Positions 9,222-42,000 of a stretch of DNA of 42,867 nucleotides are shown here, one piece after another. The stretch covers positions 1 to 42,867 of the forward strand of contig JAGVHQ010000049.1 in NCBI GenBank assembly GCA_020056565.1. The letters are read 5' to 3'. The notes beneath the pieces are model-generated. The model was not told where the DNA came from and ran no database searches. It saw only the letters and a list, made by a program, of their open reading frames with translations. Within the stretch, counting starts at the first letter, position 1; each line of letters opens with the position of its first letter. The stretch is from Candidatus Berkelbacteria bacterium. GTDB lineage: Bacteria; Patescibacteriota; UBA1384; JAGVHQ01. The translations under genes and the position numbers were made by a program.

Positions 9222-9297
9222 TGGCGCTCTCGGCGGGATTCGAACCCACGGCCTCTACCTCCGGAGGGTAGCGCTCTATCCGCTGAGCTACGAGAGC
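9222..9297 (-). tRNA. tRNA-Arg (anticodon CCG)
   Basis: A 76-nt tRNA on the minus strand with CCA encoded. The acceptor stem is GCTCTCG/CGAGAGC (7 bp) and the D stem GCTC/GAGC. The anticodon stem CTACC/GGTAG holds loop CTCCGGA, so the anticodon is CCG (reads CGG, Arg). The T stem GTGGG/CCCGC has loop TTCGAAT. All arms are intact. Structured element copy C lies 11 bp upstream of its 5' end. Confidence 0.95.
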
Positions 9298-12017: not shown

Positions 12018-12079
12018 TGTGCCATTGCAAAGCCCATCCCTAGGGGGAGCAGCTGAACAACTTGAGGAGGATCAACGAG

Positions 12080-12697
12080 ATGATTCGACGCGCACTTGTT
12101 TCGACGACAAACATGAAGGGTTTAGTGGATTTTTGCACGGGGTTGCACAAGCTCTGTCAGACCGAATTCGTTGCCACCGATTCTGCGGGCAGGCTTCTGA
12201 TCGAGGCCGGTCTGCCGACCCAACTGACCCATGAGTTGACCGGCTTACCCAAAGGGTTTTTGGGTGGGCTTGTCAAAACGCTGCACCCATCGGTCCACGG
12301 TGGGATTCTCGGACCTGGTTCCGAGCACGAGCACGAACTTGCGGAGCAAGGGGTCAAGCCGTTCACGATGGTGATCGTGAACTTTTACGACTTCCCGGGC
12401 GCGGTCGCCGGACAAGACTCTCTGGTAGCGGCAAAGGCCGCAACCGATATCGGCGGACCCGCAATGTTGCGGGCAGCGGCCAAGAACTGGGAACACGTCG
12501 TACCTGTGTTCAACCCTATCGATTACCCCGAGATTCTCGATGCGCTGCGTCGCGAAAAGGATATCTCGCGCTGTTTGCGGCTTCGGCTTGCGATTGACGC
12601 CTTCGCGCATACGAGCGCGTATGACTCCGCCATCAGTGCGTATCTCTTGGGGCAGTACCACCTGATCGACGCTCAGGACTGCTGCGGCCGAATGTAG
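12080..12697 (+). CDS. Free-standing IMP cyclohydrolase domain (N-terminal half of PurH)
   Basis: A 205-residue protein matching only the N-terminal MGS-like IMP cyclohydrolase domain of PurH: RALVSTTNMKGLVDF, KGFLGGLVKTLHPSVHGGIL, TMVIVNFYDF and TDIGGPAMLRAAAKNWEHVVPVFNP. The AICAR formyltransferase half (~300 residues) is absent, and the ORF ends cleanly at TAG. The expected reaction is ring closure of FAICAR to IMP, the last step of de novo purine synthesis. The family's usual STGGTA is replaced by TDSAGR, so activity needs care. AGGAGG lies 9 nt before the ATG. It is followed 11 nt downstream by a small membrane protein gene. The formylating step would need PurP or another enzyme elsewhere. 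Confidence 0.8.
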   Translation: MIRRALVSTTNMKGLVDFCTGLHKLCQTEFVATDSAGRLLIEAGLPTQLTHELTGLPKGFLGGLVKTLHPSVHGGILGPGSEHEHELAEQGVKPFTMVIVNFYDFPGAVAGQDSLVAAKAATDIGGPAMLRAAAKNWEHVVPVFNPIDYPEILDALRREKDISRCLRLRLAIDAFAHTSAYDSAISAYLLGQYHLIDAQDCCGRM

Positions 12698-15129: not shown

Positions 15130-15166
15130 AGTGCCGCTGAAATTACTTCAGCAAGGGGTGAATCTT

Positions 15167-15667
15167 TTGAGGTTCCTTTCAATTCTAATAGCACTCGCGG
15201 CTTTGGCCACTTCATCACTCGCCCAAACTTGGTATTCCAATCCAGCAAACGGGCATCAGTACACTTTCACTTCGACAACGGATTTCTCTTGGGCACAAGC
15301 GGAGCAAGAGGCAGTGTCGTACGGCGGTCACCTGACTGCGATTGGTGACGCAGGTGAGAACAACTGGCTTGATGCTACATTTGGCATAACAAGTTGGTTC
15401 TGGATCGGTTTCACCGATCAAGCGAGCGAGGGCGACTGGCTCTGGACCACCGGCGAGCCAGTGACTTATACAAACTGGAACCCAGGGGAGCCCAATAACG
15501 AAGGGGGATCCGAGAATTGGGCTGGCATGGTTTGGCCGCAAAATCCTGGTTGGAACGACTTTCCTGAATTGTATCGAATGTATGGGGTTGTTGAAGTCGT
15601 TCCTGAGCCAGCAACGATTGCGGTTCTCGGGTTCGGATTACTGGCGATCGCCAAACGTCGGCGTTGA
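15167..15667 (+). CDS. Secreted C-type lectin-domain protein with PEP-CTERM anchor
   Basis: A 166-residue protein. Signal peptide MRFLSILIALAALATSSLA is cut before QTWYSN. A C-type lectin-like domain (about 24-140) has WAQAEQEAVSYGGHLTAI, WFWIGFTDQASEGDWLWTTGEPVTYTNWNPGEPNN (EPN-type calcium/sugar loop) and ENWAGM. The C-terminus is VPEPATIAVLGFGLLAIAKRRR, a typical PEP-CTERM sorting signal: PEP, hydrophobic helix, basic end. Family knowledge: PEP-CTERM proteins are processed by exosortase and are linked to exopolysaccharide. AAGGGGTG precedes the TTG start. No exosortase gene is in the window. It is a monocistronic unit with its own promoter and terminator, unusual for the presumed host group, and may be acquired. 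Confidence 0.8.
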   Translation: MRFLSILIALAALATSSLAQTWYSNPANGHQYTFTSTTDFSWAQAEQEAVSYGGHLTAIGDAGENNWLDATFGITSWFWIGFTDQASEGDWLWTTGEPVTYTNWNPGEPNNEGGSENWAGMVWPQNPGWNDFPELYRMYGVVEVVPEPATIAVLGFGLLAIAKRRR

Positions 15668-15705
15668 GTCGCCATTCAATAGACTACGAGACTACTTTCG
15701 CTTTG

Positions 15706-15742
15706 ATGCGGCGGGGACCCTTCCCGCCGCATTTATTTATTT
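15706..15742 (+). terminator. Terminator of the lectin gene
   Basis: ATGCGGCGGG and CCCGCCGCAT form a perfect 10-bp stem with a 7-nt loop, followed by TTATTTATTT. Confidence 0.85.
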
Positions 15743-15759
15743 CTATACAACTATTCTGA

Positions 15760-15818
15760 TTGACTTTCTGGTTGCGTGCAGTATACTGAGCGTACAAAAA
15801 TTTGCGCCAGTGGCGCAG
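15760..15818 (+). promoter_or_regulatory. Promoter and leader hairpin of plsX
   Basis: TTGACT (15760-15765), 16-nt spacer, TATACT (15782-15787). A short hairpin TGCGCC-agt-GGCGCA follows near 15804-15818 in the leader. Confidence 0.6.
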
Positions 15819-15846
15819 AGATTTTGCAAGCACGGTACCAGAACAA

Positions 15847-16845
15847 ATGAATATAGTAAACAGACTTGTTTTTTCGCTCCCTGTGGTGGCAATCGACAGC
15901 AGCGGTGGCGACGACCCTCGTGAAGTTCTGCTCGGCCTTGCCGAGTGGAGTTTCAAGGAAATTCCCTATCTTGAAGTTGAAAGCGCGGCTGAAGGTGTGC
16001 GTGCGCTTCTCGATGGCAGGGCCCAAGCGTTCGTTTCGGCTGGCAATACCAAAGAGGTGGTGCGCGCCGCGACCCGCCTCGGTCGGATTAAGTTCCAGCC
16101 GCCCGGTTTTGATAGGCCGCGCGGGATCAAACTGCCGATCGCGCTCGAGCTTCCGACCGAGATGGACGAAAAGCACTTCGTCCTCTGTGATGCGGGCGGG
16201 AGCGTGGATGTGGACGAGTATGACCTGGTCACTTTTGCCCACGCCGGCGCAACATACTTTCGGGAGCTTGAGTTCAATCCTCACTTACGGGTGCGAGTCG
16301 GGATCCTGGCAATCGGGGAAGGAGAAGAAAAGCTACGGCGCATAGATCGGGAGTGTCTTGAGCTTCTAAAGAACGTGGATTCCTTTGAGCTCGTGGGTGG
16401 CGTCGAGTCCTACCAGGTTCTTGCGGGTGAGGTGGACGTCTTGATCGGCTCTGGCCGCGAAGGCAATTTGGCTCTCAAGGGCGTGGAAGCCGGCGTGGTA
16501 ATGGAGCATACCATTCTTCGTCAGGAGTTCGCCCGAGGGTTTGGCAGCCGCCTTACCGGCTTTGCAGTCAAGCTCATCGGGCACCGGGCGTTTGCGAGGG
16601 CGAAAGCGCGTCTGAACGAATCGCGCTTTGCGGGCGGGATCCTCTGTGGATTCGAGCACGAGAATGCCGCGATTTTCATCTGCCATGGTCGAAGCTCGGC
16701 CGACGATATCTATGACGCGCTTGACCGTGCGTACCGCTGGGGAGATGCGGCGGCACGTATGCAGGCAACCCTCAAGGAGGAACTGCACAAATACCATCCG
16801 GACTGGTTTTCCAGCCTTGCCACGGGTGCACCGCACGCGCCCTAA
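15847..16845 (+). CDS. plsX: PlsX-like phosphate acyltransferase
   Basis: A 332-residue protein. PlsX makes acyl-phosphate from acyl-ACP for membrane phospholipid synthesis. Matching motifs are VVAIDSSGGDDPREVLLG (usually DAMGGDxxP; here Ser-Ser), AFVSAGNTKEVV, FVLCDAGGSVDVDEYDLVTFAHAGATYF, RVRVGILAIGEGEEKL, FELVGGVESYQVLAGEVDVLIGSGREGNLALKGVEAG and the Gly-rich C-terminus. The family usually lacks such changes in DAMGGD and GAN, so this is a divergent copy. No ribosome site is evident before the ATG at 15847; the frame stays open upstream to 15802. It is a single-gene unit ended by the terminator at 16900. It converges with lexA. Confidence 0.75.
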   Translation: MNIVNRLVFSLPVVAIDSSGGDDPREVLLGLAEWSFKEIPYLEVESAAEGVRALLDGRAQAFVSAGNTKEVVRAATRLGRIKFQPPGFDRPRGIKLPIALELPTEMDEKHFVLCDAGGSVDVDEYDLVTFAHAGATYFRELEFNPHLRVRVGILAIGEGEEKLRRIDRECLELLKNVDSFELVGGVESYQVLAGEVDVLIGSGREGNLALKGVEAGVVMEHTILRQEFARGFGSRLTGFAVKLIGHRAFARAKARLNESRFAGGILCGFEHENAAIFICHGRSSADDIYDALDRAYRWGDAAARMQATLKEELHKYHPDWFSSLATGAPHAP

Positions 16846-17632: not shown

Positions 17633-20600
17633 TTAAGCGCTCTCGCACCAGTGGCGTGCGTTTTGAAAGAGTTGTAGCCAGGGGCTGGCTGCGAGCCCTT
17701 TCATAGAGTCTGGCAACCAGGGCCAGTTCCACAGTTCAGTGGTGCGTTCGGGGTGGGGCATGATCGCCAGGTGGCGACCATTTGGTGAACATAGAGCAGC
17801 GATGCCAGCAGGGCTTCCGTTCGGGTTGAACGGATAATTCTCTACCGTACCATCGGCTATGCCACCTTCCGGAAATGCGAATCTGACAGGGGCAAGCCCC
17901 TCGTCAAGAATCCGCGTGAGCGTAGCAGGGTTCGGGACGCGCAGACATCCTTCACTGTGCGCCCCCCAGATGCCTAGGCGAGACCCTTCCATGCCCTTGA
18001 GCATGATTGCTGGACTGGGCATGATCTCCACGGTTGGGAACCGTGACTCGAACTGGCGCGAAGCTCCGGCAGAGGCGTTACGGATGAAACGCGGTTGCTC
18101 CTCATCCTTTAGCCCGTATTCCGGGCCAGGCACCCACCCGAGCAAGGCCATCAGTTGGCAGCCGTTGCAGACTCCTAGCGAGAAGGTATCGGACTGGTTG
18201 TAGAACCGCTCAAACTCTGCGGCAAGTCGCGGGTTAAAACGGATCACACCTGCCCAACCCTTGCCTGCATCAAGGACGTCTCCGAATGAGAACCCTCCCA
18301 CAAAGGCAACTCCCTTGTACCCTTTGAGCGAGACGCGATCTTCCAGAAGGTCATTCATCATCATGTCATGCGGTTCAAATCCTGCTTTGAAAAAGCCTGC
18401 AGCCATCTCGCGATCGCTATTGCAGCCCTGTTCTCGCAGAATTGCCACCCGCGGCTTTTGGCCATTGGCGTAACTTGCAGGAAGACCAAGCGTTGGCTCG
18501 AATGAGAGCTTGTACGCCGGCCGTGTCACCTTTGTTGCAAGCACTCGATGCTCGGCTTCGGCATGCTCCGGATTGGCCTGGAGCTTTTCGATCTCCGTAC
18601 TAGTGCGCTCCCACTGCCCCCGAAGAGTCAGCATGTCGCTTACAAGTACCGGTTCTCCGTTGCAGCAGATCCTCACGTCTAGCCCCGCCGTTGCGCGCCC
18701 GATTACTTGGGTCGTGATACCTGCATACCAGAAGAGGGTATCAACCGATTCCTGCATGTCGGGCTTACACGCCACAACCAGTCCAGGCTCTTCGTTGAAC
18801 AGAAGAGCCAGAGGATCAGCATCACCCTTGATGTTGATGTCCAGACCGGTGCATCCGGCAAACGCCATCTCCAAGAGCGTTACGATCAATCCCCCGTCGC
18901 TGCGATCGTGGATGGCTAAGAGGCGACCGAGTTCGACGAGCCACTGCACTGTGTCGAATGTCCACTCCAGAAGCGCGGAATTAACATCAGGCGATTCATC
19001 CCCTACCTGTCCGAAGACCTGCGCGAGTGCTGAACCGCCTAAGCGGTTTTTGCCTTCGCCTAAGTCAATGTAGAGCAGAAGTGAATCAGCCGGGACGGCG
19101 GGTGTTATCTTGCACGTGATATCGGGCATGGGCGCGTAGGCCGCAATGACCAACTCGCCCGGGGCCTTAACCACGTGCTCTGATCCGTCGGGCGCAATCT
19201 GCTTTGCTGCCATTGTGAGACTGTCCTTACCGCCATCGATCGCGATTCCCAGCTCGCAGAGGATGTCTCGAAGAGCGATGGCCGCATCGTAGAGGTGCGC
19301 GCCTTCGCCGGGTAGCTTGGCTGCCCACATCCAGTTCGCTGAACAGCGAATATCCTTTCGGTCAGTGATCTTTGCTCCTGCCATGTTTAAGAGCGCTTCA
19401 GATACCGCGAGGCGTGCCATCGCAGCCGGAGAGATCAATCCCTTTAGGGGCTGTTCTCCAAGACTTAAGGCAACACCCTGCGTTCCGAAGTGGCTTTGAG
19501 CCATTACCGCAAAATCCGCGACTGGAGTGTGCATGGGGCCGATACATTGCTGTTGAGCAACGAGACCGGTAACGCACCGATCAACTTTGGTCGTGAGGTA
19601 TCGCTTTGAGGCCACTGCAGGAAGCAGCAGCACCCGCATCAATGCCTCTTGGACAGTCAGACCCTCCGGCAGATTGAGCGGCTGCAGGTTTGTCTGAACC
19701 CGTGAAATCTCAAAGGTCTTTTGCGGCAGATTCTCGAGAATGAGGTCCAGCGGCAGATTAACGGGAGTGCTCCCATCGCTCTCATCGTGAAGTACCAAGT
19801 AGCCGTCTCCGGTCACTTGCCCCACGATTGCCATCGGAACACCCTCGCGCTTGCTGATCGACTCAAGCTCATCAAGACCCTCTTCGCCAACCAATAGCGC
19901 TTCCCGCTCCTGACTCTCGTTCACCCAAATCTCGGCAACCGACAGGCTCGTATCCCCGACTGGGATAGCACGAAGATTGATTCGTGCACCTGCTGGAACA
20001 ACGAGTTCCGGCAAGGCGCTGCAATCGCCGCCCGCTCCCAAATCGTGAATCGAAATAATCGGATTGCGCTCACCAAGCTCGCTGCAGGTCTGAATAACCC
20101 GCCACATTCGCTGCTCCATCTCGGGGTTACCGCGCTGAACAGCATTGAAATCGAGCTCGGATACATTCTCGCCCTGGATCATCGAGCTTGCTGCTCCGCC
20201 GCCGATACCGATTCGGTAGGCAGGGCCGCCAAGCTGGACCAGGAACATGCCCTTCTCAGAAGCACCTTTCTCAATGTGCAGTTCATCGATCTGCCCCACG
20301 CCTACGGTATACATAATGGGCTTGGTAAAGCTTCGCTGCTCACCACTCACCATGAGGCCTACTGTTCGAGTGAATCCGTAGATCACCGGCTCACCAAAGC
20401 AGTTGCCGTAGTCGGAGGCGCCGTCTGAGGCGCGTATCAGAATCTCGAGCGGTGAAGCCCAGTTATCTGGATGCGCCCAACTTCCCTCTTCCCAGGGCCG
20501 TATGAAGCCCGGGATCTGAAGGTTGCCAACGCAGTATGCTGCACCTGCACCGCCCATGATGCCTGCACGCCCAACAGACAGATTGTCGCGAATGCGACCG

Positions 20601-21571
20601 CCTGTCCCGGTTGCAGCTCCCGGATAGGGAGCCTTACCAGAGGGCATGTTATGGGTTTCGGCAGTTTGGGTGGGATGCAACGCTCGCTCAATGACCTTGA
20701 AGGCTGCAGGCATTCCTGGATGAGACGAAACGAGCGCCCTGACCTTCCAAGGAGCTTTGATCGCTGAACTATCGTCGTGAAAGGCAATGAGAGAGTTCCC
20801 AGGATTGCGTTTCCAGGGATCCTTCACGATATCCATGAGGCACTCCGGCATTTCCTGATTGTCGATTACGAGCAGCCCTTTGAAGAACGGGTGTCGGGAG
20901 TGCTCCGAGTTGAGCGTTGCGTTCCCTGTAAGTTCCACGTCGGTCGGGTCACGCTTGAGCACCTCCACAAAGATGTACATGCACAGCGCGAGGTCCTGTT
21001 CGTCCATTCCCCAGCCGTGCCGCTTGTTTTCCGCGCGCAGTACCTCAATCCCCCCTGCACGCAAGGGAATAATGCGCACTGGTTCGGGGACCAAGTCGTG
21101 ATCAAGACTCATGAGTGGTTGTGGGTAGATCTGCTCGGTCATTTGGTCGTGGAGCAGGGCAGCGAGGTTGACAACGTCTTTTTCAAGCAGGCGAAAGCCC
21201 ATTCCCATTTCAAGACAGAATCGGCGTGACCGCTCAAGCCGCACAACCTGTTTTAGGCCGCACTTGTGGCAAATCTCGACTGCCGAGGTGGAAAATGGCG
21301 TTTCGAAATTAAGCCGAGGCCCGACTTCGATTATTTTGCCGTAGTTGAGGAAGGGCTCTTTACCGAACAATTCCGGTTCAAAAGTCTGAGCGAGTAGCCA
21401 CGTGAGTCGCCCCTTCTCTATGGAAGAAAGAGGGTTGCTGAGCTCCACGTAAAAACAGAACTCACTTCGCATGCCAGTGAGGTTAAGTCCGAGATTCGCT
21501 CGAACATGATTGACAAGGGTAGCTGTCGCCTGTGCCGTGAGCGCAGGGGTTCGAAAAAATCTACGTAACAT
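17633..21571 (-). CDS. purL: Phosphoribosylformylglycinamidine synthase, long single-chain type
   Basis: A 1312-residue enzyme of the long proteobacterial/eukaryotic type. It converts FGAR, glutamine and ATP to FGAM in de novo purine synthesis. An N-terminal PurS-like domain, linker, two AIRS-like halves (GGAGAAYCVGNLQIPGFIRPWE; HDLGAGGDCSALPELV; GGKDSLTMAAK; IHDRSDGGLIVTLLEMAFAG) and a C-terminal class I glutaminase (LREQGCNSDREMAAGF; LGVCNGCQLMALLG with the nucleophile Cys; MPHPERTTELWNWPWLP) are all present. The closest match I can recall is the gamma-proteobacterial PurL. The ATG at 21571 with AGGTGCGG upstream is preferred over a 51-residue longer frame. The gene has its own leader hairpin; no neighbouring purine genes. 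Confidence 0.95.
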   Translation of the reverse strand: MLRRFFRTPALTAQATATLVNHVRANLGLNLTGMRSEFCFYVELSNPLSSIEKGRLTWLLAQTFEPELFGKEPFLNYGKIIEVGPRLNFETPFSTSAVEICHKCGLKQVVRLERSRRFCLEMGMGFRLLEKDVVNLAALLHDQMTEQIYPQPLMSLDHDLVPEPVRIIPLRAGGIEVLRAENKRHGWGMDEQDLALCMYIFVEVLKRDPTDVELTGNATLNSEHSRHPFFKGLLVIDNQEMPECLMDIVKDPWKRNPGNSLIAFHDDSSAIKAPWKVRALVSSHPGMPAAFKVIERALHPTQTAETHNMPSGKAPYPGAATGTGGRIRDNLSVGRAGIMGGAGAAYCVGNLQIPGFIRPWEEGSWAHPDNWASPLEILIRASDGASDYGNCFGEPVIYGFTRTVGLMVSGEQRSFTKPIMYTVGVGQIDELHIEKGASEKGMFLVQLGGPAYRIGIGGGAASSMIQGENVSELDFNAVQRGNPEMEQRMWRVIQTCSELGERNPIISIHDLGAGGDCSALPELVVPAGARINLRAIPVGDTSLSVAEIWVNESQEREALLVGEEGLDELESISKREGVPMAIVGQVTGDGYLVLHDESDGSTPVNLPLDLILENLPQKTFEISRVQTNLQPLNLPEGLTVQEALMRVLLLPAVASKRYLTTKVDRCVTGLVAQQQCIGPMHTPVADFAVMAQSHFGTQGVALSLGEQPLKGLISPAAMARLAVSEALLNMAGAKITDRKDIRCSANWMWAAKLPGEGAHLYDAAIALRDILCELGIAIDGGKDSLTMAAKQIAPDGSEHVVKAPGELVIAAYAPMPDITCKITPAVPADSLLLYIDLGEGKNRLGGSALAQVFGQVGDESPDVNSALLEWTFDTVQWLVELGRLLAIHDRSDGGLIVTLLEMAFAGCTGLDINIKGDADPLALLFNEEPGLVVACKPDMQESVDTLFWYAGITTQVIGRATAGLDVRICCNGEPVLVSDMLTLRGQWERTSTEIEKLQANPEHAEAEHRVLATKVTRPAYKLSFEPTLGLPASYANGQKPRVAILREQGCNSDREMAAGFFKAGFEPHDMMMNDLLEDRVSLKGYKGVAFVGGFSFGDVLDAGKGWAGVIRFNPRLAAEFERFYNQSDTFSLGVCNGCQLMALLGWVPGPEYGLKDEEQPRFIRNASAGASRQFESRFPTVEIMPSPAIMLKGMEGSRLGIWGAHSEGCLRVPNPATLTRILDEGLAPVRFAFPEGGIADGTVENYPFNPNGSPAGIAALCSPNGRHLAIMPHPERTTELWNWPWLPDSMKGLAASPWLQLFQNARHWCESA

Positions 21572-21602
21572 TCCGCACCTATTCCTTTTTTCAGATTCGA
21601 GA

Positions 21603-21644
21603 GCCCAAACGTTAGGCGCCTTTAGGGCACTTTTTATTTTGGGC
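21603..21644 (-). promoter_or_regulatory. Candidate structured leader of purL
   Basis: On the minus strand GCCCAAA (21638-21644) pairs with TTTGGGC (21603-21609), enclosing a short GCC/GGC inner hairpin, about 32 nt before the purL start. It does not match the purine or PRPP riboswitch sequences I know. Confidence 0.35.
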
Positions 21645-21694
21645 TTATGCGATAAAGGTAACAGAATATACTTTTTATTCAATGAGATCGGGAT

Positions 21695-21725
21695 AAAAAA
21701 GCCCCTCTGCCTTGCGGCGAGGGGC
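21695..21725 (-). terminator. Terminator after the L,D-transpeptidase gene
   Basis: On the minus strand GCCCCT/AGGGGC with loop CGCCGCAAGGC, then TTTTTT (21695-21700). Confidence 0.85.
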
Positions 21726-21783
21726 ACGTACAGTGCCTGAACCCAAATGGCTCAGATTTCAGGTGGTGTTTGGGATACAAACC

Positions 21784-30698: not shown

Positions 30699-31874
30699 TC
30701 AATCGCGATCGTAGAGACCCATGCGGCGCGCGATTACCAGGAGCTGCATCTCGTCCGTGCCTTCGCCAATTCTGAGCAACTGCGCGTCGCGGAACATGCG
30801 CCAGATCAGAGATTCCTCCATCAACCCACTCCCGCCGAATATCTGCGTACCCTCGCGGGTGCAAAATTCGGCAAGGCGAGAGCACATGAACTTGGATTCC
30901 GCTGCCTTCTTTTCGAACGGCATGTTGTTCTGGCAGAGCCAGCATGCTTCGTAGAGGAGGAGCTCGGTAGCTGCGATCCGTGCGCTCATTTCGGCCAACT
31001 TGAACGCTGTGGCTTGATGTTCGGAAATCGGGCGGCCGAAAGTCCATCGGAGTTTCGCGTATCCGAGGGCAAGCTCAAGCGCTCTTTTGGAAATCCCTAA
31101 TCCCATCGCGGCGATCGAAAGGCGCCCCCGATCGAGTGTGGACATCATGATTTTGAACCCTTGCCCGCGTTCGCCCAGCACATGGTCTTCAGGGACCCGC
31201 ACATTGTCGAAGAATAGCTCAGCCGTGTCCGAGCTTCGCCACACTCCTTTACGATGCATCGCCCGCGCCTCGAGGCCTTTTGCATCAGCGGGGATAAGGA
31301 AAGTGGTGAACTCTTTTCGCCCCTCCCCTTTTTCTCCGGTTACCGCGAGCACAGTGATTCCGTGGGTCATGGGCGAGGAGCCATTGGTGATGAATTGTTT
31401 GGATCCGTTGATCACCCACTCTCTTTTGCGTCCATCGAACACCCCTTTTGTCTTGATGCCTTGGACATCACTGCCCGCATCAGGTTCAGTTTGGCCGAAT
31501 GCCCAGAGACCCCCCTGGCCCGTGCATAGAGCAGGAAGAAACCGTTTCTTCTGTGCCTGAGTGCCGAAGTACCCGATCGGAGCAACTCCTAATGAATTGT
31601 GCGCCGCTACCGTTGCCGCTTGAGAGCTGTCGAAGCCGGCCAGAGTTTCAACGAGCATGATGTAGGACAGGTAATCCAACCCAAGCCCACCATAATCCGC
31701 TCCGACCATCGCCCCAAGATAACCCTGTTGGGCCATTTTACGCGTGAGTTCCACCGAGAACTCCCCCTTTTCGTCGAGAGCTAACGCACGTGGTTCGATT
31801 TCGGCCCTTGCGAACGCGTGTACGCTTTCGCGCAGCAGAGTTTGCTCCGCTGTTTCTTGAGAGCTATAAGACAT
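30699..31874 (-). CDS. Acyl-CoA dehydrogenase
   Basis: A 391-residue FAD flavoprotein of the acyl-CoA dehydrogenase family. GADYGGLGLDYLSYIMLVETLAG, GLWAFGQTEPDAGSDVQGIKTKG and the C-terminal QIFGGSGLMEESLIWRMFRDAQLLRIGEGTDEMQ are typical; the catalytic base is expected to be the Glu in IGEGT. It oxidises acyl-CoA to 2-enoyl-CoA and passes electrons to ETF. The start at 31874 has a GGGGG-type site, and a good promoter lies at 31927. No ETF, thiolase or acyl-CoA ligase is nearby, so substrate and pathway are unclear. Rare in reduced Patescibacteria; possibly acquired. Confidence 0.9.
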   Translation of the reverse strand: MSYSSQETAEQTLLRESVHAFARAEIEPRALALDEKGEFSVELTRKMAQQGYLGAMVGADYGGLGLDYLSYIMLVETLAGFDSSQAATVAAHNSLGVAPIGYFGTQAQKKRFLPALCTGQGGLWAFGQTEPDAGSDVQGIKTKGVFDGRKREWVINGSKQFITNGSSPMTHGITVLAVTGEKGEGRKEFTTFLIPADAKGLEARAMHRKGVWRSSDTAELFFDNVRVPEDHVLGERGQGFKIMMSTLDRGRLSIAAMGLGISKRALELALGYAKLRWTFGRPISEHQATAFKLAEMSARIAATELLLYEACWLCQNNMPFEKKAAESKFMCSRLAEFCTREGTQIFGGSGLMEESLIWRMFRDAQLLRIGEGTDEMQLLVIARRMGLYDRD

Positions 31875-31926
31875 TGCGATCCCCCTTGTCTGTTTATTCA
31901 GACTGCTCCTAAATCTGGATAGCGAA

Positions 31927-31955
31927 AGTGTAGCTGTTTGAAGCAGAAATGTCAA
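31927..31955 (-). promoter_or_regulatory. Promoter of the acyl-CoA dehydrogenase gene
   Basis: TTGACA (31950-31955), 17-nt spacer, TACACT (31927-31932) on the minus strand. Confidence 0.7.
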
Positions 31956-35140: not shown

Positions 35141-35734
35141 TCAGCTACCCGTAAGAATCTGCGCGCTCCACCACACCAGCGCGCTCCCACCAAATGCAAT
35201 CAGCGCGCCGAGCATTACTTGTGCAAGCGTATGTCGCCCCCGAAAGATCCGCGCCCATCCAACAATCGGTACAAGTATGAGTGCCGCAAAGAAGATCGGG
35301 TTGACGGCAAACCCAAGCATCGAGGCCGCCCAGGTAATTGTCGCGGTATGTAGACTTACTTTTGTAAATTGATTTACGACTCCGAGCGCCGCGCAGATTA
35401 ACGCACTCGCCGCACTTACCGTGATTACTTCTGGAGCGGCATCGATCCCCGCTAAGACAATCGCAGAGAGGGTGATACTAATCGTCGTCACAACATAGAG
35501 TTCGCGCCGGTCGGCTTTGTCCAGGAGGCGCAGGTCTGGAATCCGTTTATAGCGATAGCCGGCAAACAGATCGATTGCACTTGGGAAAAAAGCAAGGCCG
35601 AAAATTACCGCGGCCCAGACAATTACATCTCCGGTTGTCGGGGCGTACGCAAGAATCGAAATCAGCGCCGCCAGAGGCGCGATGAGATAGGGGCTCAAGA
35701 CTCCAGAAATAATAATCGCAATACGTTTTGTCAT
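35141..35734 (-). CDS. PAP2-like integral membrane protein
   Basis: A 197-residue protein with about six membrane helices. Remnants of the PAP2 phosphatase pattern are KRIPDLRLLDKADRR, KVSLHTATITW and WARIFRGRHTLAQVMLGA (R...H). The usual PSGH is replaced by SLHT. Family role: dephosphorylating polyprenyl pyrophosphate or related lipids, which suits the operon. The start codon at 35734 overlaps the stop of the upstream glycosyltransferase (ATGA), implying coupled translation. Confidence 0.55.
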   Translation of the reverse strand: MTKRIAIIISGVLSPYLIAPLAALISILAYAPTTGDVIVWAAVIFGLAFFPSAIDLFAGYRYKRIPDLRLLDKADRRELYVVTTISITLSAIVLAGIDAAPEVITVSAASALICAALGVVNQFTKVSLHTATITWAASMLGFAVNPIFFAALILVPIVGWARIFRGRHTLAQVMLGALIAFGGSALVWWSAQILTGS

Positions 35735-36807
35735 TGGGGGATATGTTTTTTGATGAAAGAGCGCCACGTTCGCACAAAGCGTGCGGTTGAGAAATCTTTA
35801 GCCCGTTCTCGTAAGACGTCTGGTTTAAACTCACGCTCCCTCTGATGAAATGTTTTAAGCGCGTGGGCAAGAGACGCCGAAGTTGGTTGATCGAAAAAGA
35901 TGCCGGTTTCGTCGGTTAGGGTTTCCAGCGCACCACCTTTAGCATATGCAATTACCGGTGTGCCGGCTGCAAGCGCTTCTACTGGGACGATCCCGAAATC
36001 GTCATCCGAGGGGAAGATCACGGCCCGTGCTTGGGTATATAAGCACGCCAGCTCTTCGTCATTCACGCGACCGCGGAACACTGTTTTTGTTCCCTGCGCT
36101 TTACGCCGCAGCTCCTGCTCGGCTTTCCCCTCGCCGACAATTACAAGCGGTTCTCTCGTGATCCGACATGCCTCAATCGCCAAATCCGCGCGTTTGTATG
36201 CGGAAAGGCGTCCGACAAATAGGTAAAAGTTTTCCTTGTGGACCTGTTCGGGTGCTGTGAGCGGTTCAACCGGCGGATAGATTACGCTCGCGTGTGCGCG
36301 GTAGTATTTTTTGATACGAGCGGCGATGTATTCGGAATTGGCGATCCAGAAATCAGGACGTGCTGCGGACGTTTGATCCCACGTGCGCATGAAATGGATT
36401 ATCCACGAGACGATTGCTCGACGCAGAGGACCTAATTTTTGTTCCTTCAAATATTCGTGCGTCCAGTCCCACAGATAGCGGGCAGGCGTGTGGCAATAAC
36501 AGATATGGATTGTTCCGGGGTTCGTCAGGATGCTTTTGGAAAATGCGCTGGAGGAGGAGATTACTAAATCGTAGCGAGAAAAATCAAAACTCTCAATCGC
36601 CATCGGAAAGCGCCAGAGTGCCGCACGCTTGAGTGGGCCGGTCTTCCATGGCCGAATATCCCATGCTGAAAAAGCCCCTCGGGTCCCCTGTTCGTCGTAC
36701 CAGAGGGTATAAACCGGCGCTTCCGGGTACAGTGAATGAAGCGCGGTTAGTACGCGCTCTGCTCCCCCTTGGGTTGTAAGAAAATCATGCACAAATGCGA
36801 CTTTCAT
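35731..36807 (-). CDS. GT4-type glycosyltransferase
   Basis: A 358-residue GT-B enzyme. N-terminal MKVAFVHDFLTTQGGAERVL, HICYCHTPARYLWD, YLFVGRLSAYKRADLAIEA (C-terminal domain start), LACLYTQARAVIFPSDDDFGIVPVEALAAGTPVIAYAKGGALETL with an E-type nucleotide-sugar motif. It transfers a sugar to a lipid or glycan in envelope polysaccharide synthesis. The frame is open 119 codons upstream, but that part overlaps hairpin DNA; the ATG at 36807 gives the family start. First gene of the operon running to 32585. Confidence 0.88.
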   Translation of the reverse strand: MKVAFVHDFLTTQGGAERVLTALHSLYPEAPVYTLWYDEQGTRGAFSAWDIRPWKTGPLKRAALWRFPMAIESFDFSRYDLVISSSSAFSKSILTNPGTIHICYCHTPARYLWDWTHEYLKEQKLGPLRRAIVSWIIHFMRTWDQTSAARPDFWIANSEYIAARIKKYYRAHASVIYPPVEPLTAPEQVHKENFYLFVGRLSAYKRADLAIEACRITREPLVIVGEGKAEQELRRKAQGTKTVFRGRVNDEELACLYTQARAVIFPSDDDFGIVPVEALAAGTPVIAYAKGGALETLTDETGIFFDQPTSASLAHALKTFHQREREFKPDVLRERAKDFSTARFVRTWRSFIKKHIPQ

Positions 36808-37272
36808 CAGAAGCCTTATTGTTATCGTAACGTGTAGCGTGCTAAATACAAAGCAAACCGAGGACTCTGCCCTTGACCCCCACTGCGTTAAAGCTTTGCG
36901 GGGTCTGCGCCCTGTCCCATATCCCACATCGGATGTGGGATATGGGAGCTTGACAGCGTTCGAAGATGGAGTAATACTACCTTTGTTCGTAGTGCGATGC
37001 CCCCATCCCTTGTGGGCAAAGCAGGATCTGAACAACTCGAGCCGTTTCCTCCCAAACGTAACCCTTTGGGGTTCACAAGAGGATTGAGGGAACGATTGAG
37101 AGGTGTGCCGAAAGGCACTGTGGTTTCGTGTCACCTCCGGAGCCAAAAAGTGCACGAAGGTCAAACCAGTTTATTCATAACGCTGGTGCGACAAAGGGGT
37201 TTCGGCGGGTCGTTACTCATCGTTTCGTCTCCGCCGATCCCCTTTCCATCAACTCCGTCTTTTATCGAGCTA
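36808..37272. other. Hairpin-rich intergenic region
   Basis: No ORF I can support. It holds a perfect 14-bp palindrome (36916-36929 with 36933-36946; CCCATATCCCACAT arm), AACCC/GGGTT, GTGTGCC-gaaa-GGCAC near 37108, and GCCCC/GTGGGC near 37001. It separates the GT4 operon from a plus-strand group of small ORFs and may encode structured RNA. Confidence 0.5.
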
Positions 37273-37727
37273 TGAACGGTCTACCTTACACCTCCAATTG
37301 TATCGGGTATGACCGTGAAGGGTACTGCGCTTTGGCAAGCCATGCATCGCGCAGACCCTTCGATTTCCAGAAAGTTTGGGCGGACTCCTCCCTCGAACTC
37401 TTCTGGATCGCTGACGCGGAAGGTAAACCTGGCCTTTTTGCGACAGCATCGGGCCTTCGGCGCTGGCTTGAGCCTCCTCGCGCCGAGGTCCGTGATTCCA
37501 ACACCCCCTTCATCGGGGGACAAATCGAGTCTGTGCGTCTTCGGACCAGTAGGCGCGCATCCATATTCGGAACTTCCCCTTCCCAGAAGGGCCCGAATGA
37601 CTCGAACGTGAGCATCTGGGGTGGGCTTGCCTCGGCAAGCCTCAGTGAGACGGGCCCGCTCGGCGTTCTGCCGGGCGCGGCCCTCTTTTTTTTGCGCGAG
37701 GACGGGTTTATACTTGGGAAGATGTGA
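37273..37727 (+). CDS. Possible protein of unknown function, running into a terminator
   Basis: A 151-residue frame. Codon pattern from about 37380 to 37510 looks coding (GAC, GAA, CTC, TTC, ATC, GCT, GCG); SSLELFWIADAEGKPGLFATASGLRRWLEPPRAEV reads like a folded domain. No strong ribosome site precedes the ATG. The frame passes through a strong terminator (37652-37693), so the message would end before the stop at 37725. Either the gene is truncated or frameshifted, or the real frame is another one. An alternative is 37309-37611 (100 residues), which ends before the terminator. No family recognised. Confidence 0.3.
37624..37693 (+). terminator. Hairpin plus strong terminator
   Basis: GGCTTGCC/GGCAAGCC (37624-37641) is followed by GGGCC...CGGC-gttct-GCCG...GGCCC (37652-37683) and a TCTTTTTTTT tract. 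It proves that a plus-strand transcript ends here. Confidence 0.8.
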
Positions 37728-37909
37728 ATCATTTGCTTCGGCATTTGGTTTACAGAACCCTTGATAATTGAGGTGAAACTATTGAATGTCGCTTAGTGCG
37801 CTCGGCCCGCGGGTCAAACGGAATTGTCCCGCACTATGCGCTGCTTGGCACAGCACGCCGCAGAACCTTCGTCCATTCTTCTCGCGTTCATAAGGGAGGG
37901 TAGTGACAC

Positions 37910-38221
37910 TTGTATAGATTAGGACGCGCCCCGCGGAGGGCAGTTCGACACCCGTGGTGGGTGATGTCTTTGGTTGGTCTTTCGGCGATGATCTGGCGTT
38001 TCCTGCGATGCTGGGGACGCTCGATTCAAGCGCCTAAAACAGCGGTAAGGCCTGAAGGTTCGCGCTTTGAGATTTCAAAGTCTTCAGGGACCTCCGCGAC
38101 CCCGATCGATCCACTACCACGAAGGCAGAGCCGAATCGTGGCAGGTCACTCCGCACTGGAGTGCCTTTGCCGCCGGCTTTGCCCTATCAAGCGGCGAACC
38201 CACCGTTACTCGTGCGGATGA
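37910..38221 (+). CDS. Possible small Arg-rich protein with one hydrophobic segment
   Basis: A 103-residue frame starting TTG at 37910 with GGGAGGG about 8 nt upstream. It is rich in Arg, Ser and Pro and has one hydrophobic stretch (WWVMSLVGLSAMIW). No family recognised. A plausible leader (37790-37905) with AGTGCG/CGCACT pairing precedes it. It may be on one transcript with the next small ORF. Confidence 0.4.
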   Translation: MYRLGRAPRRAVRHPWWVMSLVGLSAMIWRFLRCWGRSIQAPKTAVRPEGSRFEISKSSGTSATPIDPLPRRQSRIVAGHSALECLCRRLCPIKRRTHRYSCG

Positions 38222-38244
38222 GATACGGTGTGAACCTTCTCATT

Positions 38245-38276
38245 GACAAGTGCAGTGTCGCACCACTGCGCTTGTC
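38245..38276 (+). other. Hairpin between small ORFs
   Basis: GACAAGTGCAGTG and CACTGCGCTTGTC form a 13-bp stem with one G·U pair and a 6-nt loop, 30 nt before the start of the 54-residue ORF. No T-run; likely an mRNA processing or regulatory hairpin. Confidence 0.5.
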
Positions 38277-38305
38277 CCGACCTTGGGAAAAGGAGCTTTC
38301 TGTCT

Positions 38306-38470
38306 ATGAAACGTTTCCGAAGCAACGGATTGGACCCGCCGCAGACGATAGCGCTAGGGACCAACCTCGAATACGGTCAAGGCAATACCGGGCCGCCGAT
38401 GGGAAAGAACTCCCAGCTCGGCGCGCTCGACAACAAGGTCAACGGAACGATCTCCGGTCAGACCAGGTGA
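38306..38470 (+). CDS. Small 54-residue protein
   Basis: Begins ATG at 38306 with AAAAGGAGC upstream at good distance. Sequence is MKRFRSNGLDPPQTIALGTN, then LEYGQGNTGPPMGKNSQLGA and a Gly/Asn-rich tail. It is hydrophilic, Asn/Gly-rich, without a membrane segment. No family recognised. The clean ribosome site and low-complexity hydrophilic character make it a credible small protein. Hairpins lie on both sides, and a terminator lies at 38653. Confidence 0.45.
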   Translation: MKRFRSNGLDPPQTIALGTNLEYGQGNTGPPMGKNSQLGALDNKVNGTISGQTR

Positions 38471-38542
38471 ACGGCACGGGCCACTAAGTTCACCGGTTTG
38501 AAACCGGAAAAACGCCTGAGGTAATCAGATACCAAGGGCAGA

Positions 38543-38575
38543 GGGCCCAATTCGCAGCACGGCTGCATTGGGTCC
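38543..38575 (+). other. Hairpin downstream of the 54-residue ORF
   Basis: GGGCCCAAT and ATTGGGTCC enclose GCAG/CTGC. No T-run. An ATG with GGGGGA upstream follows at 38601, but its frame runs into the terminator at 38653. Confidence 0.5.
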
Positions 38576-38652
38576 TTCAGACTGATAAGGGGGAAACCTG
38601 ATGAGTTCGACTCGTTTGGCGCATGCATTCGGCGCATGTCTGCCGCCTCGAA

Positions 38653-38690
38653 AGGGTCCGCGCCTCCCCGGCGTGGGCCCTCTTTCTTTC
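38653..38690 (+). terminator. Terminator of the plus-strand small-ORF region
   Basis: AGGGTCCGCGCC and GGCGTGGGCCCT around TCCCC form a GC-rich hairpin, followed by CTTTCTTTC. It ends at the stop codon of the converging response regulator gene. Confidence 0.7.
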
Positions 38691-39052
38691 TACATCGTCA
38701 ATTTCTGCGCCGTTTGGACTAAGTCGAATGGCGTGATCTCTGTTTTATGCAGGATGGCCTCTGCCCCGAGTCCTTTAGCCGCATCAATCTCCTCGTGGGA
38801 GAGCCGGCCGCTCACCACAATCACGGGGATTTTTTTATAGCGTGGGTTACTTTTCATTTCACTTAATACTTCGATCCCATGTCCACGGGGTAAAAAGAGG
38901 TCAAGCACCACGACTGTCGGCGTGCTCTCTGCCAGCATCTTGAGCGCTTCAGCACCGCTTTCAGCGCACTCCACATCCCATCCGCGCGCTTTAAACGCTT
39001 CGGTATAGAGTGCCGAAATCTCAGGATGATCTTCGACAATTAAGACCTTCAT
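38690..39052 (-). CDS. Single-domain response regulator (receiver)
   Basis: A 120-residue CheY-like protein with no output domain. Acidic pocket VEDH, phospho-acceptor Asp in VVVLDLFLP (about residue 51), Ser in VIVVSG and Lys in ILHKTEI are all present. It is translated with the upstream kinase (ATGA overlap at 39049). It must act by protein contact or as a phosphorelay step. Confidence 0.92.
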   Translation of the reverse strand: MKVLIVEDHPEISALYTEAFKARGWDVECAESGAEALKMLAESTPTVVVLDLFLPRGHGIEVLSEMKSNPRYKKIPVIVVSGRLSHEEIDAAKGLGAEAILHKTEITPFDLVQTAQKLTM

Positions 39053-40353
39053 TTCCCGTCCTGGGCCAAGGGAAAGAAAAGCGTAAAGCGTGTCCCGCCT
39101 TTATACTCGGCAACCTCAATTGTGCCTTTAGTAAGCTTCATAATCTCTTTGGCGATATAAAGCCCAAGTCCACTCCCCTGTTGTTCCCACCGCGAGCGAT
39201 CGATTTGGGAAAAACGCTCGAAAATCTTGCGCCGATCACGTGCGGCAATTCCGGGGCCTTGGTCGTCCACGTGCACGAGAATATGCTCCGCCGAGGTGCT
39301 ATAGCGGATCGTTACGGTGCCCCGCTTTCCGTCAGAATGATGTGCGGTAAACTTAACTGCGTTTTCGATTACCTTTTCCAAAACTTCGGTTGCCTTGGAC
39401 GCATCTAGCTCGGCTTTGGGCAATTCGCGCGTAGGGGCTTCATGTACAACCCGTACACGGATATCAGCGGGGATTTTTTTGAGTGCCGTTTTTACAATCT
39501 GTTCTACCGGATATGCGCCGGTTACCAAACGAACAAGGCCAGCATCCAACCGGCTGACTGTTAGAATATCGCGCACCAACGCGCCCAGACGATTAATACT
39601 GGTCGTGACTGCGTCAAAATAATGCCGGTCTTTCTCCGACAGCTTAATCTTGCCCTCGTCCAACGCCATTGAAAGCCGCCCTTTCGCGATCGTAATTGGT
39701 GTTGAAAGTTCGTGCGTGGCAACGGCGATAAAATCGTTTTTGAGTGCATTCAGGTCGCGTAGCTTGTCGGCTACTGATTCTGCCAGGCGCTGCGCGCGTT
39801 CCGCCTCTTCTTTTGCACGCCAGTTCTCCTCGAGATTATAGAGGACGCTCGTGACGATTCCCGCAATCAGAAATAGCGCGCCGATATTAATGAAGGCAAG
39901 TAAGGTATTGGAAAGAATGTCAGTCAGTACAGTGGTATCGAAGGCCATTACCGTAAGTAGCATTAATTCCGTTCCGACTACCCACCAGGGTGATACGCGC
40001 CCGAGTCCGCGGTGTAGGAGGGCGGAAAATAAGATTGGGAAAAAGTACAAAAAGAAAAACGGGCTCGTCCAAGCGCCGGTTAGAAAGATTATTACACTGA
40101 TTAAGATGAGCCCCATGAGCTCATCCACAATTGTGGCGAGATGGGGTTGATATTTAAGCAGCGTGCTCATAAAACGTCGGTGAAAGACAGGAATATAGAG
40201 CGTATACACTGCTCCAAAGATAACCGTGTCCCACCCTGCTACAAAACCGGGCCACCAGCTCACAATCGCAACATAGCCAATCAACAGCGCCCAATAAAAG
40301 AGTTCAACTTTAGTCGCAATCTCGAGTCGCCACTGCGTTTCCGCTCCGCGCAT
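39049..40353 (-). CDS. Membrane sensor histidine kinase
   Basis: A 434-residue kinase. N-terminal ~190 residues form about six membrane helices with no periplasmic sensor domain; HisKA with phospho-His in FIAVATHELSTPI; HATPase motifs N-box ENAVKF, G1 VDDQGPGIA, F-box and G2 GSGLGLYI. It phosphorylates itself and passes phosphate to the receiver protein encoded just downstream. GGGGGAG precedes the ATG. The 6-helix input suggests sensing of membrane state or a small lipophilic signal. Confidence 0.92.
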   Translation of the reverse strand: MRGAETQWRLEIATKVELFYWALLIGYVAIVSWWPGFVAGWDTVIFGAVYTLYIPVFHRRFMSTLLKYQPHLATIVDELMGLILISVIIFLTGAWTSPFFFLYFFPILFSALLHRGLGRVSPWWVVGTELMLLTVMAFDTTVLTDILSNTLLAFINIGALFLIAGIVTSVLYNLEENWRAKEEAERAQRLAESVADKLRDLNALKNDFIAVATHELSTPITIAKGRLSMALDEGKIKLSEKDRHYFDAVTTSINRLGALVRDILTVSRLDAGLVRLVTGAYPVEQIVKTALKKIPADIRVRVVHEAPTRELPKAELDASKATEVLEKVIENAVKFTAHHSDGKRGTVTIRYSTSAEHILVHVDDQGPGIAARDRRKIFERFSQIDRSRWEQQGSGLGLYIAKEIMKLTKGTIEVAEYKGGTRFTLFFPLAQDGK

Positions 40354-41740: not shown

Positions 41741-41817
41741 AGTTCTATTATCCCTTATTTTTATCTTTCCGTTAAAGACGGACCTTGTCTTTCCGGCGTT
41801 CTTCTTTTCTGGAAGTT

Positions 41818-41911
41818 AGCGGTGAGCTGCGCTTCTACAAAAACCGCTGTTTGAGGATCCGCCAGCTGGCGGAGACGAGTTCGGATTTTTGAAGAAAGCA
41901 GCGTGACCGCT
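41818..41911. repeat. 94-bp composite palindrome
   Basis: AGCGGT plus CTGCGCTTCT on the left and AGAAAGCAGCG plus ACCGCT on the right form the outer arms. The centre is a perfect 16-bp palindrome, TCCGCCAGCTGGCGGA (41858-41873). The same core (TCCGCC-agtc-GGCGGA) occurs in the leader at 209-224. Confidence 0.65.
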
Positions 41912-41949
41912 GACGCTCCAAGAGAAGTCGTGTCGGGGGAGGAAGGTGC

Positions 41950-41997
41950 TGGAAGGAGGGGGCTGACTTCGAAATGAAGCCCCTTCCTTCCAGCTGC
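41950..41997 (-). terminator. Long hairpin after mreB
   Basis: On the minus strand GCTGGAAGGA and TCCTTCCAGC enclose GGGGCT/AGCCCC around a 15-nt loop. There is no strong T-run, so it may act as a 3' stability hairpin as well as a terminator. Confidence 0.6.
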
Positions 41998-42000
41998 AGA

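Follow-up and report, generated by a model that had tools for sequence, protein, structure and literature searches.

A candidate locus for a large structured noncoding RNA in a reduced genome of Candidatus Berkelbacteria

Results and Discussion

A gap of ~1.7–1.9 kb without a recognisable gene in a Candidatus Berkelbacteria genome is best explained, with moderate confidence, as a plus-strand locus for a large structured noncoding RNA with predicted transcripts of ~0.7 and ~1.7 kb. A coding signal is absent, the predicted folding far exceeds that of shuffled sequence and is stronger on the plus strand, two intrinsic terminators are present, and the promoter is supported by other genomes of the class. 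Lack of coding potential and plus-strand folding beyond that given by composition are two of the marks of a large structured noncoding RNA, and both are found here. Among the options raised in the first-pass annotation, the folding, the promoter and the terminators support that of a structured-RNA locus.

Genomic setting

The window is the whole stretch analysed, a contig of 42,867 nt (contig C2) from an incomplete 0.8-Mb draft genome in 64 contigs; genomes of the phylum are about 0.5–1.4 Mb. As first proposed, the region lies between two minus-strand gene blocks, with the glycosyltransferase gene on one side and a response-regulator/histidine-kinase pair on the other. Its neighbours are cell-envelope and signalling genes, namely glycosyltransferases, the two-component pair and MreB. 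The G+C content of the segment is somewhat above that of its flanks. The features are listed below.

35731–36807, minus: glycosyltransferase gene, one flank of the gap
36870–36955, plus: upstream promoter element (GACCCC...GGGGTC hairpin, TGCGCCC, 33-nt palindrome), ending at the -35 box
36915–36947, plus: perfect 16-bp inverted repeat with a 1-nt gap (the 33-nt palindrome)
36950–36978, plus: sigma-70-type promoter, TTGACA-17-AATACT
36983..37691, plus: unit 1, predicted structured RNA of ~0.7 kb (fold z, helices, no coding signal)
37272–37727, plus: 151-aa ORF, ATG start
37629..37656, plus: copy of the interspersed repeat GCCTCGGCAAGCCTCAGTGAGACGGGCC
37647–37692, plus: intrinsic terminator 1
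37717..38690, plus: unit 2, predicted structured RNA domain of ~1.0 kb (fold z, pair probabilities)
37910–38221, plus: 103-aa ORF, TTG start
38245–38257/38264–38276, plus: 13-bp hairpin in unit 2
38306–38470, plus: 54-aa ORF, ATG start
38653–38690, plus: intrinsic terminator 2
38690–40353, minus: response-regulator/histidine-kinase pair, other flank; response-regulator gene convergent with the locus

Elsewhere, several features appear by eye to be unusual for a reduced genome: a purH-like fragment (12062–12697) and genes for a PEP-CTERM-type lectin-like protein (15131–16845), a 1364-aa purL-like protein (17633–21727) and an acyl-CoA dehydrogenase-like protein (30699–31955). These are possible lateral acquisitions. 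A cobalamin-riboswitch-like sequence was also seen by eye at about 1040–1230 of L004, after a cobalamin-adenosyltransferase-like gene and before a small exported protein.

Folding and predicted architecture

With terminators included, the two halves of the region fold with z-scores of -10.7 and -5.9 (20 shuffles each). A stricter test used 60 shuffles and left out the upstream palindrome as well as the two terminators; it gave z -7.96 on the plus strand and -5.25 on the minus strand for unit 1 (36983–37645), and -5.36 and -3.54, respectively, for unit 2 (37700–38650). The plus strand is the more stable in both units. Yardsticks from the same genome were RNase P RNA (z -5.75), tmRNA (z -2.22) and 28 coding windows, for which the mean z is -0.52 (sd 1.14, lowest -4.45).

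Scanning in 150-nt windows gave ordinary z values up to ~36800 and from 38700 and strongly negative values between, except at ~37725–38025; the zone of structure has limits that match the ends of the flanking genes. The excepted stretch is not locally stable, and z is about 0 for 37700–38073, which counts against the RNA-locus reading. Another gap in the contig, of 625 nt, has a z of only -1.3. Thus, strong folding is not a feature of every gap.

In single-sequence prediction, unit 1 folds as a chain of ~17 tightly packed hairpins. Unit 2, predicted in the same manner, has long-range helices at 37759–37774/38364–38382 and 37792–37799/38351–38358 (probability about 0.8), which enclose a multibranched core. 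The 13-bp stem noted earlier at 38245 is real, with a pair probability of 0.97. A paralogous origin of the two units was considered and rejected; the terminator motif is the only thing that they have in common. Counts of UUCG and GNRA loops were dropped as evidence for the strand, because the loops are too few.

Promoter, terminators and predicted transcripts

The sigma-70-type promoter is the only consensus match in the region. One such match is expected by chance alone, and only 4 of the 6 bases of the -10 box AATACT agree with the consensus, a weakness that counts against the RNA-locus reading. Comparative support for the promoter comes from the upstream GGGGTCTGCGCCCTG core and hairpin, which recur 11 times before promoter-like sites. 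The 11 copies of the core (at most 1 mismatch) are spread over four other class genomes, and after each come a hairpin-like spacer, TTGACA (TTGACT in one copy), 16–17 nt of spacer and a hexamer resembling a -10 box. As judged by eye, ordinary genes (secG-, greA- and mscS-like) lie downstream of most copies, and one copy precedes a c-di-GMP-I-GGC riboswitch. The upstream element has no match in Rfam. Its palindrome, first described as 14 bp, is indeed perfect, but the arms are 16 bp with a 1-nt gap.

In five genomes of the class, the pattern CTTGACCCC...GGGGTCTGCGCCC-hairpin-GGGCTTGACA lies immediately before promoter-like sequences. Additionally, two CTTGAC words bracket most copies of the element, an arrangement that would fit a palindromic element which inserted at the -35 box or brought that box with it.

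Both of the terminators reported at first pass were confirmed, as a G+C-rich hairpin with T8 (37652–37691) and a 12-bp stem ending at ~38690. The stem of terminator 1, GGGCC-CGCTCGGC / GCCGGGCG-GGCCC, has a pair probability of about 1.0, and part of its arm is supplied by the GCCTCGGCAAGCCTCAGTGAGACGGGCC copy, which belongs to a repeat seen within genes of this genome as well. Terminator 2 has a T-rich tail and lies right against the 3′ end of the response-regulator gene, which runs towards it.

Transcription of the locus would start near 36985, and the RNA would run through the dense hairpin chain of unit 1 to terminator 1, giving an RNA of ~0.7 kb. Partial read-through of terminator 1 would carry transcription into unit 2 and on to terminator 2, giving an RNA of ~1.7 kb. 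A consensus search of the region found no promoter belonging to unit 2 itself, and we infer that unit 2 arises by read-through. By analogy with OLE, ROOL and GOLLD, the product would act as a folded RNA, alone or in an RNA–protein particle, and not as an mRNA.

Palindromic repeats and spacer DNA

The strongest competing explanation is a functionless spacer rich in palindromes, made of nested or decayed REP/MITE-like elements whose hairpins have no RNA role. This is unlikely, but several observations speak for it. The genome has interspersed palindromic repeats, and copies resembling GCCTCGGCAAGCCTCAGTGAGACGGGCC occur in its contigs C4 and C52. In addition, the gap at 41741–42000, from a glycosyltransferase gene to mreB, holds a long imperfect MITE/REP-like hairpin (z -7.1) capped by a CCGCCAGCTGGCGG palindrome. 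The minus strand of the locus folds well too, and no conservation was seen. However, blastn of the region against its own genome returned just two short fragments elsewhere; only the 28-nt repeat and the 33-nt palindrome recur. The pairing consists of many different short hairpins together with long-range helices, unlike one long inverted repeat, and a 1.9-kb spacer in a 0.8-Mb genome would probably be unusual. A structured-RNA locus is favoured over spacer DNA by the strand bias in both units, by the scarcity of repeated sequence and by the terminators.

The repeat CTCGGCAAGCCTCNGNGAGACGGGCC was observed inside or at the start of ORFs in two other contigs of the genome (L003, 1495–1540; L004, 1500–1530), which may mean that palindromic repeats insert into its genes.

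Searches for relatives

At the gathering threshold, Rfam 15 matched no family in the region, including OLE, GOLLD, ROOL, raiA and group I/II introns; its one match in the window is the tRNA at 9225–9297. Permissive Rfam scans of the region returned either nothing or matches far under the family cut-offs, six in number with E-values of 2.5 to 9.8. Pfam and NCBIfam searches of the products of the region likewise gave zero matches. RNase P RNA and tmRNA (RF00010 and RF00023) were considered as identities for the locus and rejected, as it matches neither model and the copies of this genome sit on contigs C5 and C37.

A diverged member of a described RNA family or of a known type (leader, intron or phage-type large RNA), beyond the reach of the Rfam models, is improbable. 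Very remote members can escape the Rfam models of large RNAs, and candidate phyla are thinly sampled. Against this stand the permissive matches, so far below the cut-offs, and the presence of RNase P RNA and tmRNA elsewhere in the genome. Additionally, no same-strand gene lies downstream and the locus is therefore not a leader.

Nucleotide searches covered three partly overlapping sets, of 55 genomes of the class (all of other orders), 380 of the phylum and 353 of another class. Only short chance or repeat matches were returned by blastn, and those in G088 and G144 fall within coding frames. Three covariance models, each built from one sequence and its predicted pairs, were searched against the 380 phylum genomes (R1 and R3) or the 55 class genomes (R2). 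They found only themselves, apart from two marginal matches (E 0.06 and 0.08) set aside as chance. Given single-sequence models on predicted pairs and the strict filters of many-genome searches, a relative at the distance of an order could be missed, and an empty result with no positive control carries little weight. No homologue means no covariation, which counts against the RNA-locus reading. The first-pass annotation had named lack of conservation in close relatives as evidence against its proposal; no relative was found, but with comparison genomes all of other orders this is established only weakly.

Synteny was followed through both flanks. Glycosyltransferase orthologues are present in 49 of the 55 class genomes, and 18 of 19 loci examined have an ORF on the same strand, 357 aa or longer, directly upstream; the contig of the 19th ends too early. 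A comparable noncoding gap is thus absent beside the gene in 18 of the 19, which counts against the RNA-locus reading and suggests that the locus is specific to its lineage or placed elsewhere in others. The histidine kinase gave only generic kinases of 25–39 % identity in searches of genome contigs and of the class; its best named relatives are from Candidatus Colwellbacteria and Dojkabacteria, in keeping with a place in the Patescibacteria.

Coding potential

The 1.7-kb gap does not code for protein. ORFs of 151, 103 and 54 aa are present as first reported, and their lengths are what this composition would give: in 500 dinucleotide shuffles the longest ORF here, of 199 aa, has P=0.09, and with ATG starts only the longest-ORF P is 0.21. 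A codon-usage score was trained on the 21 clear genes of the window, with genes scored leave-one-out. These genes score 0.00 to 0.29 bits per codon, in contrast to -0.09 to -0.32 for eight ORFs of the region. G+C at the second codon position is 0.49–0.63 in the ORFs of the region and 0.42 in the genes.

A messenger for small proteins, of these three lengths or others, with the hairpins as regulators or terminators, would fit the purine-rich sites that precede the 103- and 54-aa ORFs. It is very improbable, given negative codon scores in every frame tested, second positions too rich in G+C and shuffle-like lengths. The 151-aa ORF also passes through terminator 1, no protein family is matched, and a translated-frame search of viral contigs found no relative of the region. 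The small-protein cluster entertained at first pass is contradicted by the codon usage and the empty Pfam and NCBIfam searches. An anti-phage-type or mobile cassette, also suggested there, has no support; the region encodes neither a recombinase nor a defence-type product, and searches of phages and plasmids found no similar DNA.

An assembly error or the joining of foreign DNA might be thought of for a somewhat G+C-richer segment of an incomplete draft, but is hardly credible: one repeat in the segment also occurs in two further contigs of the genome, and its promoter element is shared with other genomes of the class.

Comparison with known large RNAs

RNA classes longer than 600 nt with elaborate folds are few in bacteria, and the majority have no known function. 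A non-exhaustive literature search turned up no account of an RNA of this type in these bacteria. More tentatively than the RNA-locus reading itself, the region may represent an undescribed class of ornate large RNA, with two tandem units of ~0.7 and 1.0 kb behind a promoter of the usual type, peculiar to an isolated lineage with a reduced genome and working as an RNA-only or RNA–protein particle. The locus takes up ~0.2 % of the genome, a cost which suggests that such an RNA would probably be useful. If the reading is true, large ornate RNAs also occur in candidate phyla with reduced genomes, and a locus with predicted ends could seed a family search once relatives are sequenced.

OLE RNA is about 600 nt and has the Oap proteins as partners (PMC9723947, PMC12286853). 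The locus resembles OLE in being large, noncoding, predicted to fold elaborately and at a single chromosomal site, but does not match the OLE model of Rfam. OLE, ROOL and GOLLD are ornate RNAs that assemble as RNA-only oligomers; many GOLLD members exceed 800 nt, and GOLLD and ROOL belong to phages and prophages and frequently lie close to tRNA islands (PMC12286853). The locus shares with GOLLD and ROOL the size class, an ornate predicted structure and the lack of an assigned function. It differs in matching neither of their models and in its setting among cell-envelope and signalling genes, outside any phage or prophage context near tRNAs; the sole tRNA of the window (9225–9297, Rfam 15 scan) is 28 kb away. 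In excess stability the two units are comparable to RNase P RNA, and tmRNA is weaker than either.
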